A stretch of 64,000 nt of DNA from a virus, in IMG/VR virus record IMGVR_UViG_3300006192_000007, positions 37,134 through 101,133 of that record. One strand, given 5' to 3'. Position numbers and translations under genes: made by a program. The notes under the pieces are model-generated. The model had not been told where the DNA came from and did no database searches. It saw only the letters and a list, made by a program, of their open reading frames with translations. This document shows positions 15,292 to 21,637 of this stretch, piece after piece. The first letter of the stretch is position 1, and each line of letters starts with the position of its first letter.

Positions 15292-15798
15292 ATGAAACGA
15301 ACACTAGTTTTAAGTGGTAATGTTGAGATGGACCATATCCTATTCATTATTTCTGAAATGGAACGAATGGACGCCGAGTCTAACGATGACATATTCCTCA
15401 TTGTAGATAGCTTTGGTGGCTGTGTAGCATCAGCTCTAGCCCTGTATGAAGCATCACGTAATATCAAGTCTGACATCGTTACGATTGGTGTCGGTAAGGT
15501 AATGTCTGCGGGCTTGTTCATCGTTGCGACGATTGGAACCGAAGCAAAACGTCTAGCTATGCCAAACACACAGTTTATGTATCATGAAGTGCGTGGGTTT
15601 GGTATGATGGATGTTTCATCCGTAAGAGTACGTCGCATTTACAACCAGCGCCTACTGGAACTGTTTTCTAAACATACAGGCAGCCCAGTAGAGACCTTAC
15701 GTGAACTGGGTAAGCGTGACACTTATAAGTTCCCTGAAGAAATCATCAATGAAGGCTTAGGCTGGATTGATGCCATTGTGCAGCCACAGACAGCATAA
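15292..15798 (+). CDS. ClpP-like serine protease, 168 aa
   Basis: All ClpP landmarks are present: DSFGGCVASALALYEA (residues 39-54, the SPGG oxyanion region), the nucleophile Ser72 in GKVMSAGLF, His98 in MYHEVRG, Asp143 in KRDTYKFPEE, and the closing EGLGWIDAI. The length is somewhat below bacterial ClpP (~200) because the N-terminal propeptide is missing. ClpP forms tetradecamers that need an unfoldase for large substrates; none is encoded nearby, so it may use a host ATPase or act on small substrates. It shares a transcript with the upstream pseudo-ClpP-like gene. Confidence 0.9.
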   Translation: MKRTLVLSGNVEMDHILFIISEMERMDAESNDDIFLIVDSFGGCVASALALYEASRNIKSDIVTIGVGKVMSAGLFIVATIGTEAKRLAMPNTQFMYHEVRGFGMMDVSSVRVRRIYNQRLLELFSKHTGSPVETLRELGKRDTYKFPEEIINEGLGWIDAIVQPQTA

Positions 15799-15804
15799 TA
15801 AGAC

Positions 15805-15838
15805 CTCCTATGCCCTAGGGCATAGGAGTGTCCTTTTT
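15805..15838. terminator. Bidirectional terminator between convergent genes
   Basis: An 11-bp stem CTCCTATGCCC / GGGCATAGGAG with a two-base loop is followed by TGTCCTTTTT on the + strand. The - strand frame ends inside the hairpin (15815). Confidence 0.8.
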
Positions 15839-16312
15839 ACCGTGTTGGGTGGCATTGATGGCTGCTTGCACGTCTTTATCATGGCCTTGCATCGCATTAG
15901 CGGCGAGTTCGTTTTCACGTCTTAGTACTCGCTCACACTTATCCATGATGTCTTCAAAATCCTGTACACAGGTTTCATACAGTAAAGTGTGTATCGACAT
16001 CCCTGTCTTTTCCGTAATCCCTGCGTCTATGATACGGTCAATCATCGCTTTCTTAGCCCAGTCTCTGGCACGCTTCTTTTTAATGGTTACCAAAGGAAAA
16101 GGGTCAGTCGCATTGACGACATTGTGATTATGAATGTTAAAAGACGTTTCAAATATTTCCCTAGCCAGCAGTTGCCGTAAGACGGCATCGGTGGTACCTA
16201 TCTCTAGGAACTTTATCCAATGCCGCTCACGTTCTTCTAGGGTAGGGACGAAGTCTAAGGCACTTAACGTGTCCCTTAGCGCCTCTGGCCTGAACTCAAT
16301 ACCATTATAACG
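15815..16312 (-). CDS. -1 frame extension of the zinc-ribbon protein, 165 aa
   Basis: Reading in the -1 frame from CGT at 16312 gives 165 residues without a stop, starting RYNGIEFRPEALRDTLSAL and ending at the hairpin terminator. There is no good start codon with a ribosome site inside it; the nearest is a TTG at 16093. The composition (Arg/Glu-rich helices, LEERERHWIKFLE) is that of a real protein. Joined at the slippery site it yields a 683-aa product. The alternative is a plain frameshift mutation or a base-count error in the T6 run. Confidence 0.75.
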   Translation of the reverse strand, partial: RYNGIEFRPEALRDTLSALDFVPTLEERERHWIKFLEIGTTDAVLRQLLAREIFETSFNIHNHNVVNATDPFPLVTIKKKRARDWAKKAMIDRIIDAGITEKTGMSIHTLLYETCVQDFEDIMDKCERVLRRENELAANAMQGHDKDVQAAINATQHGKKDTPMP

Positions 16313-17865
16313 AAAAAATAGTGCACCACTGGGATAGGGATGATCCCCGGACGCTTATCCGACTTACGAGACTGACCTCGCCCACAGGCAGGGCATTTAT
16401 AGTTAGGAATCCCCACAAAGGCATGAGTGTACTTCGCCTTAAAATCTTCGACTGCGTCAATCAGCGCATCGCTGACTTCGTCAGACGCCGATAGGTCGCC
16501 TAGACGGTCCATGACTTCTTCACGGGTTTTCCAGCCCATCTCACCTACGTTTTCGCCGCCACATGTCCATGTTGTCCCAGTAGACTCTTCAATAATTTCA
16601 CGAATCCAACTACTGTGACGCTGTGCAGTCAATCGTGAAATTAACATGCGTATTGCGTTCTGACGACGTTCGGTAGACGCTTTAAGACCTAAGTCAGGAG
16701 CGGTTTCTAAAGCACGGTCTACTGACATCACGACGTCCGATAACCAGCGTTTACATTCTAGTCGGTAGTCTTTGTACATAGGCGCACGGATAACAACTTT
16801 ATAAATCGCTTTACCTTGTTCGTTTAAAGGACCCGATGTAATAGCAAGGTCTTTAAAGTCATTGCGGTAATCTTCGATGTCCTTTAACGTAACAGACTGC
16901 ATCGGCATATTAATGAGGCGGGCTTGTTTGGCAGTAAATCTGTCTGTGTCAATATGTGTCACCATACGAAAATCTAGACGCACGAGTTCGTCTACATTCT
17001 TAACGGCTTTTAAGGTACTCCAGTCACAGCTCCCTTCGCTATCGAACTTATAGGTACAGTCACGCACAAAAGGATATCCACGTGGATACATCGCGGCTAA
17101 GCCACCCACTAGTAGCGTATAGAGGTCACGCACATCAAGATGTTCTTCGATAATGGCCTTAGTCCATCCCTTAATCGTAGTATCTGTTACGTGGTCTAGT
17201 ACAAAGTCCGTCATGTGACACAATAAGTGAGCGTCATCGGCTGAAATGATTTGCCCATTGGTTTTCATACCTACATCTTCAACCATCGTAAGCAGTTGAG
17301 TCTGGAAGGTAAAGATTTCACCAGGAGTAAAACCTCCCAATTGCACGGTAAAGCCGCTGTGCCATAAACGCCATACTACGTTTTCACCCGTACCCAGCAT
17401 TGCTTGAATGCGACGCCGCGCAGCATCACCAGAAAGTCTATCAGTGCCTTCGGCTACCGCACTACTTAAGAAGGTGTTGGTTACGCGCTTAGCATCGGAC
17501 ATCAGATACTGAGCAAGCTTCTTATCGCCAACCATATCATCGTAGCGTTCAGTAAGTGTCATATGGCTTAAACGCAAAAGGTAGTCACCTATCTCTTTAC
17601 GTCGAGCTGGACTGAGGGTATCGTCTTTAGCGATTTCTTCAATCAGCCCTTTAATCGTTACGATGTCTGCTTGACCAGACGGAAGAGGTAATACTTCATC
17701 AGGGTCGAGTTTATCGTCCACTTCTAAAGGGTTATGGTAACTATAGCCCTCGGGCATATCCCATTCGTCAATAATAGGGGATGTTGCTTCCTCCACCTTG
17801 GCAGTATCGTCTTCCGATATTAATGGGGTAATATCTTCAGGTTGATATTCAAATTCATCACTCAT
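16276..17865 (-). CDS. Zinc-ribbon protein, 0-frame product of a frameshift pair, 529 aa
   Basis: The N-terminal ~60 residues are acidic and disordered; the rest is helical. A CPACGRGQ knuckle appears near residue 490, close to the C-terminus, but a second cysteine pair is not obvious. The 0-frame ends shortly after a perfect T TTT TTC slippery heptamer (16318-16312, correct phase), and the last ~11 codons are low-content tail. In the -1 frame an open reading frame continues for 165 residues. Products extended by -1 slippage are common for tail-assembly chaperones of phages; that role is possible here but not shown. It starts after AAGGAG and follows the small gene at 17877-18212. Confidence 0.82.
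   Translation of the reverse strand: MSDEFEYQPEDITPLISEDDTAKVEEATSPIIDEWDMPEGYSYHNPLEVDDKLDPDEVLPLPSGQADIVTIKGLIEEIAKDDTLSPARRKEIGDYLLRLSHMTLTERYDDMVGDKKLAQYLMSDAKRVTNTFLSSAVAEGTDRLSGDAARRRIQAMLGTGENVVWRLWHSGFTVQLGGFTPGEIFTFQTQLLTMVEDVGMKTNGQIISADDAHLLCHMTDFVLDHVTDTTIKGWTKAIIEEHLDVRDLYTLLVGGLAAMYPRGYPFVRDCTYKFDSEGSCDWSTLKAVKNVDELVRLDFRMVTHIDTDRFTAKQARLINMPMQSVTLKDIEDYRNDFKDLAITSGPLNEQGKAIYKVVIRAPMYKDYRLECKRWLSDVVMSVDRALETAPDLGLKASTERRQNAIRMLISRLTAQRHSSWIREIIEESTGTTWTCGGENVGEMGWKTREEVMDRLGDLSASDEVSDALIDAVEDFKAKYTHAFVGIPNYKCPACGRGQSRKSDKRPGIIPIPVVHYFFVIMVLSSGQRR
16312..16318 (-). promoter_or_regulatory. -1 ribosomal frameshift slippery site T TTT TTC
   Basis: Read on the minus strand, the heptamer is exactly in the X XXY YYZ phase with codons TAT TTT TTC. 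Both tRNAs can re-pair after a one-base slip. About 28 bases downstream GGCGCTAA and TTAAGTGCC can form a bulged stem that might stimulate slipping, though it is farther away than usual. Confidence 0.55.
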
Positions 17866-17876
17866 GTGGGTGCTCC

Positions 17877-18212
17877 TTAAGAAATCAGTTTAGACAGTTC
17901 ATTTCCGAGGTCTTCAACCTCAGTCATAATTGAGCAAAGTTCGCTATAGGTATTGTAATAGCGCATCATGTCTGCTTCACCTACTAACATCTTAGCCGTA
18001 GGCAATGCATTAATTCTTAGCAGTGCATGCCTCTGACAGCACTGATTCAATCGCTTCATTAGGTTATGGATGCTTGCCTTTTTCTCAGTAGTATTGGCAA
18101 TGGTATCTAATGCGGTAATGCCGGTTAAGACATGCTGACATCCAGCGAGTACATTGCCCGACTGAGAGTGGACATCTGCCCACGTTACCGGCTTACGTTT
18201 CTTTTGTTTCAT
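17877..18212 (-). CDS. Small hypothetical protein, 111 aa
   Basis: It starts after AAAAGGA and stops 11 bases before the zinc-ribbon gene, so the two are co-transcribed. The N-terminus is very basic (KQKKRKP); the remainder is helical with several cysteines and histidines spread along the chain (HQ.CC..H region near residues 50-60) that might bind metal. No family recognised. Confidence 0.7.
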   Translation of the reverse strand: MKQKKRKPVTWADVHSQSGNVLAGCQHVLTGITALDTIANTTEKKASIHNLMKRLNQCCQRHALLRINALPTAKMLVGEADMMRYYNTYSELCSIMTEVEDLGNELSKLIS

Positions 18213-18314: not shown

Positions 18315-19145
18315 ATGCTTAATACCTTATATGTCTACACAGGGTTACTCAAACCCTCTGTATTAGAATCCTTAGTAAAACTGGAAGGTTTATTCGAAAC
18401 CCTTAACTATACCGACCATGAAATTGAAACCAGTGAAATTGAAATGTTAGAAGGCATGTCGGACGAAGACAAAGCCCATCGAGTTACCAACGCCTATGAA
18501 AAACACATCGATGTTTTGTTGTTATTGTTAGGGGTTTTCTTAGTCCCCGATGATGACCGAATTACGTTACCTTTTAAAGTGTCTCTGCTAGAAGGGGTAT
18601 TCTCACTGGAAGATACCGATAACCTAGATATCGTAACCTCTACACTGCTAGAGATGGACGATGCTGATGCACTGATGGTCTTTGTAGAGTTACTGGTACA
18701 AGTCACCGCATTCCAGCCTGCTTTCTTACTAGCGCGCATTGAAGATGTTGAGACAAAGCTGATTCAGCGCTTAAAGAAAAAGACTGCGTTACCCGACCTA
18801 CAAGCTTCTGTAGAACACGTACGTCATGATATCCGTGACCGTATCTTAGCGGTCGATGGGGCTAAAGAAGGTATCATTTACCGTACCATAGCTCGTACGT
18901 CACAGCTTCCTTTAAGTTGGTCTGTTGCAAGTGCTGCTATCCTAAGACACGCTGAAGATACAGCCCCCGACGTACTAGGAAGAGAAGTCTATTTAGCCAC
19001 CTTAGCTGCCGATATTGACCCCATTGCCCAAAGGCAAGAAGCCATTACTTTACTGGACGATGTCTACGGAGATAACCCTTCATACTCATTCGCCCTAGAC
19101 AGCCTACTGAGCTATCTAAAGGAATCTACCCATGTTAAAGAGTGA
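18315..19145 (+). CDS. Hypothetical acidic helical protein upstream of RNAP beta', 276 aa
   Basis: TAGGAG precedes the ATG, and the gene overlaps the following RNAP beta' gene by 14 bases, which implies coupled translation. It is strongly acidic and helical, with no catalytic motif. It occupies the place of phiKZ gp79, next to the virion RNAP subunit gp80. A role as partner or packaging factor of the virion polymerase is suggested by the overlap only. Confidence 0.78.
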   Translation: MLNTLYVYTGLLKPSVLESLVKLEGLFETLNYTDHEIETSEIEMLEGMSDEDKAHRVTNAYEKHIDVLLLLLGVFLVPDDDRITLPFKVSLLEGVFSLEDTDNLDIVTSTLLEMDDADALMVFVELLVQVTAFQPAFLLARIEDVETKLIQRLKKKTALPDLQASVEHVRHDIRDRILAVDGAKEGIIYRTIARTSQLPLSWSVASAAILRHAEDTAPDVLGREVYLATLAADIDPIAQRQEAITLLDDVYGDNPSYSFALDSLLSYLKESTHVKE

Positions 19146-20370
19146 TTATTTTAAAATGGCCTTAAAGGAAGGTTGGTATCGTGACCGCCAGTGGATACTG
19201 CGCGTCAATACCATCCAGAAGGCCGATAGAGCCCCTACGGATACCCTTCCTGGTTTTAAAGAGGGACAGTTCTACATCCTCTTAGAGGGCGCAGAAGAAC
19301 CCATTACGGATACTGTACCAGACCAACCTCTCTTCCCTATTAAAGAAGTCCTCAGTCTAACCCCAGATGACTTAAAGTGCGTAAAAGAACCTATTACGAC
19401 CAACTATGGCGAAGCCACGATTAACGCCATTATCTTTGAGTACGGCAGTGCAGGTAAACTCCCTTTTATCCGGGGAGAAATCACCGGTAAACTTCTTTCT
19501 AAAGTGGTTGCTCGTGCTTTAGAAACGGATGTGATTACCGTCGATGACTACTTACGCATTATTGAAGGCATGAATTTCATTACGATGTTTGCAGACATCC
19601 ATGTTGTCGCCTATACTCCTCGGTCTCTACAGGCATCTCCAGAAGCTTTACGTATACGAGATGAACTCTTAGCTAAGTTTAAAGACCAGCTCCATGACCC
19701 TGCGATTGTGGCGATGATAGACGAGGCCATTGTAGCTGCAGATAAAGAGTTTATGGAAGGTGACCCAGCCGCTAAGTTCTACTTAGCCGATAAAGCCTAC
19801 GCTGTCGTTCGTAAGAAACTCTTCCATGTTCAAGGCGGGTTAACTCGACTGGATGACCCTTCTAAGATGGACTATATTCCACGAAGCTTAGATGAAGGGT
19901 ATGCACCAGAAGACTTACCGGCTATCATTAACTCTCTGCGTAGTGGCTCTTATGACCGTGGTGCGTCTACCGCACTGGGTGGTGAAGCCGCTAAGTTCTC
20001 TAACCGTGTGTTCCAGAACTTAAAGATTGCTGAAGAGGACTGCGGGACTAAAGTAGGTAAACCAGAAACGGTCTCAGCAGAACGTAACTTAGTCGGACGG
20101 TATATTGTCGGACGTGACACGCCAATTACCGAAGCGGAGTTTGAGACACTGATAGGTAAGCGCATTATCCTACGAGACCCTACGGGGTGTAAAACGGCAA
20201 ACCGTGCGTACTGTGGCAAGTGCATGGGGGATAAAGAAGTGGAGTCTGAATTAGGACTAGGCCCCCGTCTGTCCGAGGTCTGTTCGGTATTCTTGTCTGT
20301 TAGTCTTGCCGCATTCCACTCGGTTGCCTCTAAACTGGTAGTCTTCGACCCCAGTAAAGATATACATTAG
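19132..20370 (+). CDS. Virion-type RNAP beta' C-terminal part (gp80-like), 412 aa
   Basis: Residues 270-306 (RSGSYDRGASTALGGEAA ... KIAEEDCGT) match the beta' ..SGARG/TALKTA ... VVTEEDCGT segment; LVGRYIVGRD, a C353 ... CGKC (361-364) zinc pair and an AAFH segment (393-396) follow, matching LVGR ... C..C ... MRTFH. This is a second, divergent beta' C-part, distinct from the one at 10970. Its last 17 codons (20317-20367) duplicate, with many changes, a remnant found beyond the endonuclease gene at 21633-21686, so the present C-terminus appears to have been supplied by the inserted element. Confidence 0.85.
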   Translation: MLKSDYFKMALKEGWYRDRQWILRVNTIQKADRAPTDTLPGFKEGQFYILLEGAEEPITDTVPDQPLFPIKEVLSLTPDDLKCVKEPITTNYGEATINAIIFEYGSAGKLPFIRGEITGKLLSKVVARALETDVITVDDYLRIIEGMNFITMFADIHVVAYTPRSLQASPEALRIRDELLAKFKDQLHDPAIVAMIDEAIVAADKEFMEGDPAAKFYLADKAYAVVRKKLFHVQGGLTRLDDPSKMDYIPRSLDEGYAPEDLPAIINSLRSGSYDRGASTALGGEAAKFSNRVFQNLKIAEEDCGTKVGKPETVSAERNLVGRYIVGRDTPITEAEFETLIGKRIILRDPTGCKTANRAYCGKCMGDKEVESELGLGPRLSEVCSVFLSVSLAAFHSVASKLVVFDPSKDIH

Positions 20371-21632
20371 TCATTGTTTAATAGATTTTTTGTATAGAAA
20401 GATATTGCCTAACTAATCATATAATAATTACGATTAATGGGACTATCTTATGACTATTCGTTATCCGGAAAAAACCGCAGCCTTTATTGAAAGAGCAAGG
20501 AAAAAGCACGGTGATAAATATGATTACAGTAAGACGGATTTTATCTCTTGTAGAAAGAAGGTAATTATAACCTGCCACGTTCATGGGGACTTCGAACAAG
20601 TCCCCATTTACCACCAGTCTAAAAATGGTTGTCCTAAGTGCGCTATAGATAGCATGAAGAAGTCTAAGTTTCACGGCATCGAGCGATTCATTGAAAAGGC
20701 CCGGAAAGTGCACGGTACTAAGTATGACTATTCCAGGTCTAAGTATATTGGTGCTCTTAAAAAGCTCACGGTAACTTGCCCTGAACACGGAGACTTCTCC
20801 GTACAGGCTTCTAACCACCTAGAGGGACTAGGCTGTGCGAAATGCAGCTACGATGCTCAGCGTGAGCGCTATCGACGAGAGTTCTTTGAGAAGGCTAAAC
20901 GCGTGCATGGTAATCGTTATGACTACTCTAAAACGGAGTTCGTTAACCGTAGCACATTAGCAACCATTACTTGCCCTGTCCACGGTAATTTCCAGATGCG
21001 CCCAGGTAACCACCTAATGGGGCAGGGCTGTCCCAAGTGTGGAATTACTAAAAATACAGAGAGGATGACCGGCAATACAAAAGACTTTATCTGTAAAGCC
21101 AAGGAAGTCCATGGCCCGTGGTATGATTATGGCAAGGTCAAATACACTAAAGCCCTGGAACCAGTGACTATCACTTGTCCTTTGCATGGGGACTTCGAGC
21201 AAACTGCTAGTCGTCATCTTTCAGGCCATAACTGTCCGAGATGTGAAACTGACCCAGATTCTGGCATTAGACGGTATGTGTATATTCTAGAATTGGGTAA
21301 GATAAATGGTTTGACGGTGTACAAAATCGGTAAAGCCATTGCGCCTAAGGTTCGCCAGCGTACTCTAACCAAAAGGTTGAAACTAGATAATGGCGTGGAG
21401 GATGTTAAGCAGGTGTGGCTTTATACAACAACCTCGAAGCAAACACAAACGACTGTAGAAAACATGCTACTTGAAAGTATCAATTATCCTAAGCTTCAGA
21501 AACATGAGTTGCCTGATGGCTATTTTGAATCACGGATTACTAACTTAACCAATAGTGAGATATGTGGCTTTGCCGATAAGTTGGTGGAGAACATCAAGAA
21601 AACGATTGCCGGATTTAAAATTGGACAGGCTT
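20320..21632 (+). mobile_element. GIY-YIG homing element that replaced the 3' end of the RNAP beta' gene
   Basis: The element comprises a substitute 3' end for the beta' gene (54 bases including stop), a short AT-rich spacer and the endonuclease. The displaced original 3' end lies directly downstream. Both copies are 54 bases from the His codon to the stop with no gaps. There is no room for a group I core, and none is seen. A similar arrangement is known for an endonuclease inserted in a fungal mitochondrial atp6 gene. The left boundary is approximate. Confidence 0.7.
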
Positions 21633-21637
21633 CATGA
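20450..21637 (+). CDS. GIY-YIG family homing endonuclease with four zinc-ribbon repeats, 395 aa
   Basis: Four repeats of ~65 residues each read F.EKA..VHG..YDYS...........TCP.HG.F......HL.G.GCPKC (about residues 8-70, 75-140, 145-205, 210-265), each with CxxH/CxxC-type ligands, resembling the DUF723-type DNA-binding module. A GIY-YIG/T5orf172-like nuclease domain follows from ~275 (YVYILELG ... VYKIGKA ... R). It has only a weak ribosome site. Such enzymes cut a conserved target gene; here the flanking RNAP beta' gene is the likely target. Confidence 0.85.
   Translation: MTIRYPEKTAAFIERARKKHGDKYDYSKTDFISCRKKVIITCHVHGDFEQVPIYHQSKNGCPKCAIDSMKKSKFHGIERFIEKARKVHGTKYDYSRSKYIGALKKLTVTCPEHGDFSVQASNHLEGLGCAKCSYDAQRERYRREFFEKAKRVHGNRYDYSKTEFVNRSTLATITCPVHGNFQMRPGNHLMGQGCPKCGITKNTERMTGNTKDFICKAKEVHGPWYDYGKVKYTKALEPVTITCPLHGDFEQTASRHLSGHNCPRCETDPDSGIRRYVYILELGKINGLTVYKIGKAIAPKVRQRTLTKRLKLDNGVEDVKQVWLYTTTSKQTQTTVENMLLESINYPKLQKHELPDGYFESRITNLTNSEICGFADKLVENIKKTIAGFKIGQAS

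Follow-up and report, generated by a model that had tools for sequence, protein, structure and literature searches.

The window analysed here, a stretch of 64,000 nucleotides from a 101-kb IMG/VR record, has the gene content of a phiKZ-related jumbo phage fragment, and we focus on one of its minus-strand genes, which very likely gives rise to proteins of two lengths. The 0-frame ORF of this gene (17865–16276, 529 aa) reads ...CAC TAT TTT TTC GTT ATA... near its end, so that T TTT TTC at 16318–16312 falls in the X XXY YYZ phase, and the 0-frame stop follows 11 codons on. Re-read in the −1 frame from 16312, the DNA encodes RYNGIEFRP... and remains open for 165 codons, up to a TAG at 15817–15815, and a fusion of the two parts would thus contain 518 + 165 = 683 aa. 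An initial annotation, made from the sequence alone, had claimed the 529-codon frame, the exact phase of the heptamer, the 165 codons in the −1 frame and the 683 residues, and all of these held. Its further claim that the −1 frame has no start of its own held only in part, being true of the first part of that frame alone: a TTG at 16093 would open an ORF of 92 aa, and the first ATG is codon 89 of the extension. It had also called the product a zinc-ribbon protein, and two Cys pairs conserved at more than 90% are likely to form a zinc-ribbon-like site, with their pairing inferred. RNA polymerase fragments, a helicase and a ClpP-like gene lie nearby. The features are as follows.

16276–17865, minus strand: 0-frame gene encoding the short form, a candidate phiKZ gp77-like hub/tail assembly chaperone (ORF; phrog_4585, E 2e-59).
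16312–16318, minus strand: slippery heptamer T TTT TTC, in phase (sequence; conserved in relatives).
15815–16312, minus strand: −1 extension of 165 codons plus TAG, the putative C-terminal helical domain of the long form (identity to Vibrio phage Yong; phrog_12109; codon-position test).
16276–16311, minus strand: two-frame stretch, also encoding the short 0-frame tail of 11 residues plus stop (ORF; alignment of relatives).
16384–16395, minus strand: Cys pair C491-x2-C494, part of the zinc-ribbon-like site, just before the slip site (>90% conserved).
17026–17058, minus strand: Cys pair C270...C280, likely the other zinc-ribbon-like half (>90% conserved; pairing with C491/C494 inferred).
17877–18212, minus strand: small upstream ORF of 111 aa in the position of phiKZ gp78 (strand and neighbour match relatives; equated by position alone).

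The ClpP-like ORF (15292–15798, plus strand, 168 aa) is convergent with the frameshift gene, and its counterpart is annotated as a Clp protease subunit in Vibrio phages pir03, sm033 and BONAISHI. Between these two convergent genes, a perfect 24-bp palindrome at 15805–15828 contains the −1 frame stop codon and is likely to be a two-way terminator.

The window protein belongs to the phiKZ gp77 family: it matches phrog_4585 as given above, 26 of 26 members match that family, and synteny is conserved. Its closest named relatives are four Vibrio phages of the Yong group, with Vibrio phage Yong itself sharing 50% of body residues and 51% of extension residues, and the alignment to these phages jumps to −1 at the same base as the slip site in the window. 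Searched by tblastn, the window protein matched 96 phage records, among them phiKZ gp77, PhiPA3 gp074 and SPN3US, and the 201phi2-1 protein matched 196. When viral contigs were searched with the window protein, with the extension alone or with narrow Vibrio-clade profiles, no close relatives came up, and Pfam held no match for either body or extension. The homologous 0-frame body of phiKZ gp77, 201phi2-1 gp136, PhiPA3 gp074 and SPN3US ACQ60_gp227 (phrog_4585, phrog_8054) shares with that of the window its neighbours (RNA polymerase fragment, small ORF and helicase), the slip position and the −1 extension. The records of this family differ, however, in that the extension is either missing or entered as a shorter, separate hypothetical protein, and in phiKZ it is annotated only as an 80-residue ORF. 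From gene numbering we infer that the small upstream ORF corresponds to SPN3US gp38, which has been tentatively described as a tail protein (PMC10052503).

We retrieved 26 named relatives, and a scan of IMG/VR added 26 loci, some of which repeat the same phages, leaving 47 distinct jumbo-phage loci for the heptamer tally. All 26 named relatives carry an open −1 frame of ~150–173 codons at the same position near the 0-frame end, and the 26 IMG/VR loci show the same slip position and an open −1 extension; over the distinct set, an open −1 frame of 149–178 codons is present in 47 of 47. The initial annotation had proposed that relatives reading through in a plain single frame would refute a frameshift. 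None does so: the break always falls at the same codon pair, and the gene is fused in one plain frame at 0 of the 47 loci.

Conservation of the heptamer among relatives, likewise put forward there as a check, also held. The form [T/G] TTT TTY occurs at 45 of 47 loci and the strict T TTT TTY at 38, the individual heptamers being T TTT TTT (23), T TTT TTC (15), G TTT TTT (4), G TTT TTC (3) and A CTT TTT (2), with G thus in first position at seven loci. Upstream of this site, the ORFs of the 47 loci contain 25,184 codons without a single strict heptamer, and their other Phe-Phe pairs (n = 21) all begin with TTC. Among 27 named sequences the strict heptamer occurs in 23, against 4.2 expected from local codon usage; the nominal P of 3e-17 ignores relatedness, and the true value is larger. 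The residue preceding Phe-Phe varies (Y, T, G, V, I or L) while the base T is kept, and the heptamer is directly followed by A, G or C, so that the extra T always lies 5′ of Phe-Phe and never 3′. Since the strict heptamer so far exceeds its expected count and appears nowhere else in these ORFs, it is conserved beyond amino-acid need and is no product of chance. Among the jumbo relatives only Vibrio phages pVa-21 and JHP1101 have a weakened slip site (A CTT TTT); both read A CTT TTT A near the end of the 0-frame gene, and a few codons downstream of it A AAT TTG occurs in phase and could possibly serve as an alternative slip site.

Evidence that the −1 frame is translated straight from the slip site comes from the pattern of differences between relatives whose extensions are 45–89% identical. 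Counted only from the 0-frame stop up to whichever first ATG in a pair comes earlier, differences at −1 codon positions 1, 2 and 3 number 179, 114 and 330, a pattern matched downstream of the first ATG (874, 581 and 1526). It is also seen before any ATG, GTG or TTG (74, 51 and 147). The pairs overlap and the counts are thus not independent; the third-position excess in a stretch lacking starts shows protein-level selection in the −1 frame there. This is evolutionary evidence and not a measurement of translation. The first ATG in the jumbo phages lies 22–157 codons past the slip site. The extension as a whole constitutes one domain, although it is annotated as short hypothetical proteins or mostly omitted: phrog_12109 matches 24 of 26 extensions. 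A fold search with the extension found no match in the PDB; among viral proteins its best fold matches come from jumbo phages, and several of these are entered in the records as pieces of this very extension.

A downstream stimulatory structure is common but not universal in −1 programmed frameshifting. The first 70 nt downstream of the slip site are no more structured than shuffles or control positions (mean z −0.28; pseudoknots lay outside this test), and by eye no Shine-Dalgarno-like element upstream of the slip site is common to the relatives. It is plausible, by inference, that an assembly chaperone relies on low-efficiency slippage without strong stimulators.

As to what the body may be, one record of a gp77-family protein carries the name T4 gp26-like hub assembly, and others bear the names 'baseplate protein' and 'baseplate hub'. 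The 201phi2-1 body was modelled with AlphaFold2 (mean pLDDT 77.9, pTM 0.79) and the model was compared using Foldseek, which found, beyond the protein's own family, several BFVD models whose names mark them as hub assembly proteins of T4-like baseplates (E 1e-4 to 1e-3, probability 0.99–1.00, target TM ~0.5), among them 'Baseplate hub assembly protein, bacteriophage T4-like' (E ~2e-4, probability 1.00). Profile comparison of the jumbo body with a T4/cyanophage set aligned the same region (E 9.7e-5, probability 58%), including the Cys pair before the slip site, and a more diverse profile aligned likewise but more weakly (E 0.005). Taken singly, T4 gp26 and gp51 gave only weak alignments to the jumbo profiles, PF12322 matched none of 26 jumbo members at E 0.5, and a sequence search of solved structures yielded no useful match; cyanophage Sf-CH5 and XZ1 proteins do match PF12322. 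We thus consider kinship of the jumbo 0-frame body with T4-type gp26/gp51 hub assembly chaperones to be supported, by the fold search on a predicted model and by a weak profile alignment. The likeness would go beyond the predicted fold: T4 gp26 has a Cys pair followed by Phe-Phe near its C-terminus, as does the jumbo body, and T4 gp51 carries a C-terminal extension, as does the jumbo long form. Both T4 proteins match PF12322 end to end, with gp51 ~48 residues longer. Between the jumbo extension and the gp51-type C-terminus there is only a weak alignment (E 0.004, probability 9%), and homology between the two is no more than suggested. T4 differs, on the other hand, in having its short and long forms in two genes with plain frames; the slippery heptamer is absent from gp26, which reads GAG TTC TTT. 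T4 gp51 is needed for assembly and is absent from the particle (PMC3004832).

The same arrangement as in the jumbo phages is found among T4 relatives. In the T4-like cyanophage Sf-CH5 and in Vibrio phage XZ1, gp26 ends in T TTT TTC at its terminal Phe-Phe, and the −1 frame after this site encodes a gp51-type tail (phrog_150, phrog_634); they differ from the jumbo phages in having a smaller body (~238–283 aa) and extension (~56–63 aa) and in being annotated as two genes. Across 80 cyanophage-type loci the heptamer, in the same place as the jumbo site, is T TTT TTC in 76 and T TTT TTA in four, the latter changing Phe-Phe to Phe-Leu, yet the slip site survives. We displayed the open −1 frame for one of these four, with which the other three share the junction bases. 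The cyanophage 0-frame protein corresponds to positions 5–232 of phrog_150 and the −1 extension to 236–277, whereas T4 gp51 covers positions 13–280 in one frame. The evidence from cyanophages carries less weight than that from jumbo phages because the 80 loci are fairly close relatives and because 63 of them have an ATG at extension codon 3, which would permit reinitiation. Salmonella phage Maynard has an unannotated, phrog_634-like −1 extension after a gp26-like baseplate protein (~1940–2115 of the retrieved locus); its junction is A ATT TTC rather than a T-run, and the extension matches phrog_9633, of unknown function.

Taken together, these data are best explained by a −1 frameshifted baseplate-hub/tail assembly chaperone made in two lengths, in the manner of lambda G/GT, a reading that we consider very likely (roughly 0.85). 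The sequences show that the heptamer and the synteny are conserved and that the −1 frame is open at every locus and under selection; that ribosomes slip here, how often they do so and that the protein acts as a chaperone are inferences. In this reading most ribosomes would pass T TTT TTC and stop 11 codons on, giving the 529-aa short form. In a minority, the P- and A-site tRNA-Phe would re-pair on the T-run one base back, and these ribosomes would then read the 165 −1 codons to give the 683-aa long form, with the ratio of short to long set by the efficiency of slippage. By analogy with lambda gpG/gpGT (PMC5009743), and with no binding data, the shared body with its zinc ribbon may attach to the tape measure or hub, and the helical domain at the C-terminus of the long form may recruit another tail part. 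The initial annotation had likewise suggested −1 slippage yielding a minor long form and compared it with tail-assembly chaperones; the relatives support the former, and the latter is supported by the fold similarity to T4-type hub chaperones and by the same arrangement in cyanophages, function remaining an inference.

The comparison with lambda has its limits. The body of the window gene is much larger than that of lambda G, distinct from it and equipped with zinc-ribbon-like Cys pairs, and lambda G/GT adjoins the tape measure gene, whereas the jumbo gene does not: no tape measure gene lies directly downstream in the window, where the convergent ClpP-like gene is found, or in the relatives examined. 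In a second comparison with solved structures, HK97 tail assembly chaperone 2ob9, the kind of match that a G-like protein should give, appeared with a Z of 3.8, below the reliable level (rmsd 3.6, 91 of 107 residues, 18% identity), and common descent with lambda-type chaperones is no more than hinted at. In the 201phi2-1 record the neighbours are marked as found by mass spectrometry and gp135–gp137 are unmarked, as expected for a non-virion chaperone, although this rests on record annotation only.

Three other explanations deserve consideration. The −1 ORF could be a separate gene, with its own internal start or with reinitiation after the 0-frame stop, and no fusion would then be made. Public records do annotate a separate ORF, the window offers the TTG start described above, and the ATG at extension codon 3 in 63 of the 80 cyanophage-type loci is compatible with such a scheme. 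In the jumbo phages, however, the stretch before the first ATG is conserved and carries the third-position excess even before any ATG, GTG or TTG, and two genes would leave unexplained both the conserved heptamer and the survival of T TTT TTA in four cyanophage loci; we thus regard this explanation as very unlikely. We judge it equally improbable that the fusion arises in transcription, with RNA polymerase, possibly the phage's own, adding a U on the T-run so that some mRNAs are fused. In its favour, many loci have a run of 6–8 Ts, one extra T would restore a single frame, and these phages encode their own multisubunit RNA polymerases. Against it, five loci have only five Ts, and five Ts are short for polymerase slippage; furthermore, the extra T invariably sits 5′ of the Phe-Phe pair, where tandem slippage of two tRNAs needs it, and both T TTT TTC and T TTT TTA belong to the classical heptamers of ribosomal slippage.

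Finally, the break could be a sequencing error or a recent loss-of-function mutation in the window, given that one added T yields a single frame and homopolymers are error-prone. Dozens of phages sequenced independently of one another share the break at the same base, among them phiKZ, 201phi2-1, PhiPA3 and SPN3US, and none has a fused frame. With relatives carrying the identical break, we rejected error or a pseudogene, and this explanation is all but excluded.

Returning to the frameshifted chaperone, a bolder reading is that the T4/phiKZ branch of contractile-tailed phages also makes use of −1 frameshifting in its tail chaperones, with an ancestor that slipped on T TTT TTY, as present-day cyanophages and jumbo phages would, and a T4 lineage that exchanged slippage for the paralogues gp26 (short) and gp51 (long, the 'catalyst'). 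We lean slightly towards this view, in which the replacement in T4 is inferred. T4 has been noted as an exception in the frameshifting literature (PMC5009743), and the bolder reading, if true, would explain both that exception and the puzzling gp26/gp51 pair, and it predicts that gp26:gp51 acts as lambda G:GT.

Frameshifted tail chaperones are already known, and it is the gp77-family case, its slip site and the link to T4 that appear to be new. We found none of these in the literature searched, with several key subscription papers outside the search and a prior description therefore not excluded: the PRFect paper (PMC10885494) is silent on phiKZ and on jumbo phages, frameshifting does not come up in the SPN3US papers searched, and the PaBG paper mentions it for dnaX only. 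The phiKZ-related giant phages and many ocean relatives of T4 appear to make two lengths of a baseplate-assembly helper. If this is true, about 200 jumbo-phage records (196 matched) and many cyanophage genomes omit or split one tail-assembly protein, the 'unknown' PHROG families 12109, 7580, 13274 and 34704 are parts of such a protein, and phiKZ gp77, conserved across these jumbo phages with no assigned role, gains a testable function.

Elsewhere in the window, a 395-aa ORF at 20450–21637 (plus strand), with four zinc-ribbon-like units of the form GxKYDYSK...CPxHGDFxQ...GCPKC, adjoins the RNA polymerase fragment at 19132–20370 and resembles a mobile homing-type insert.
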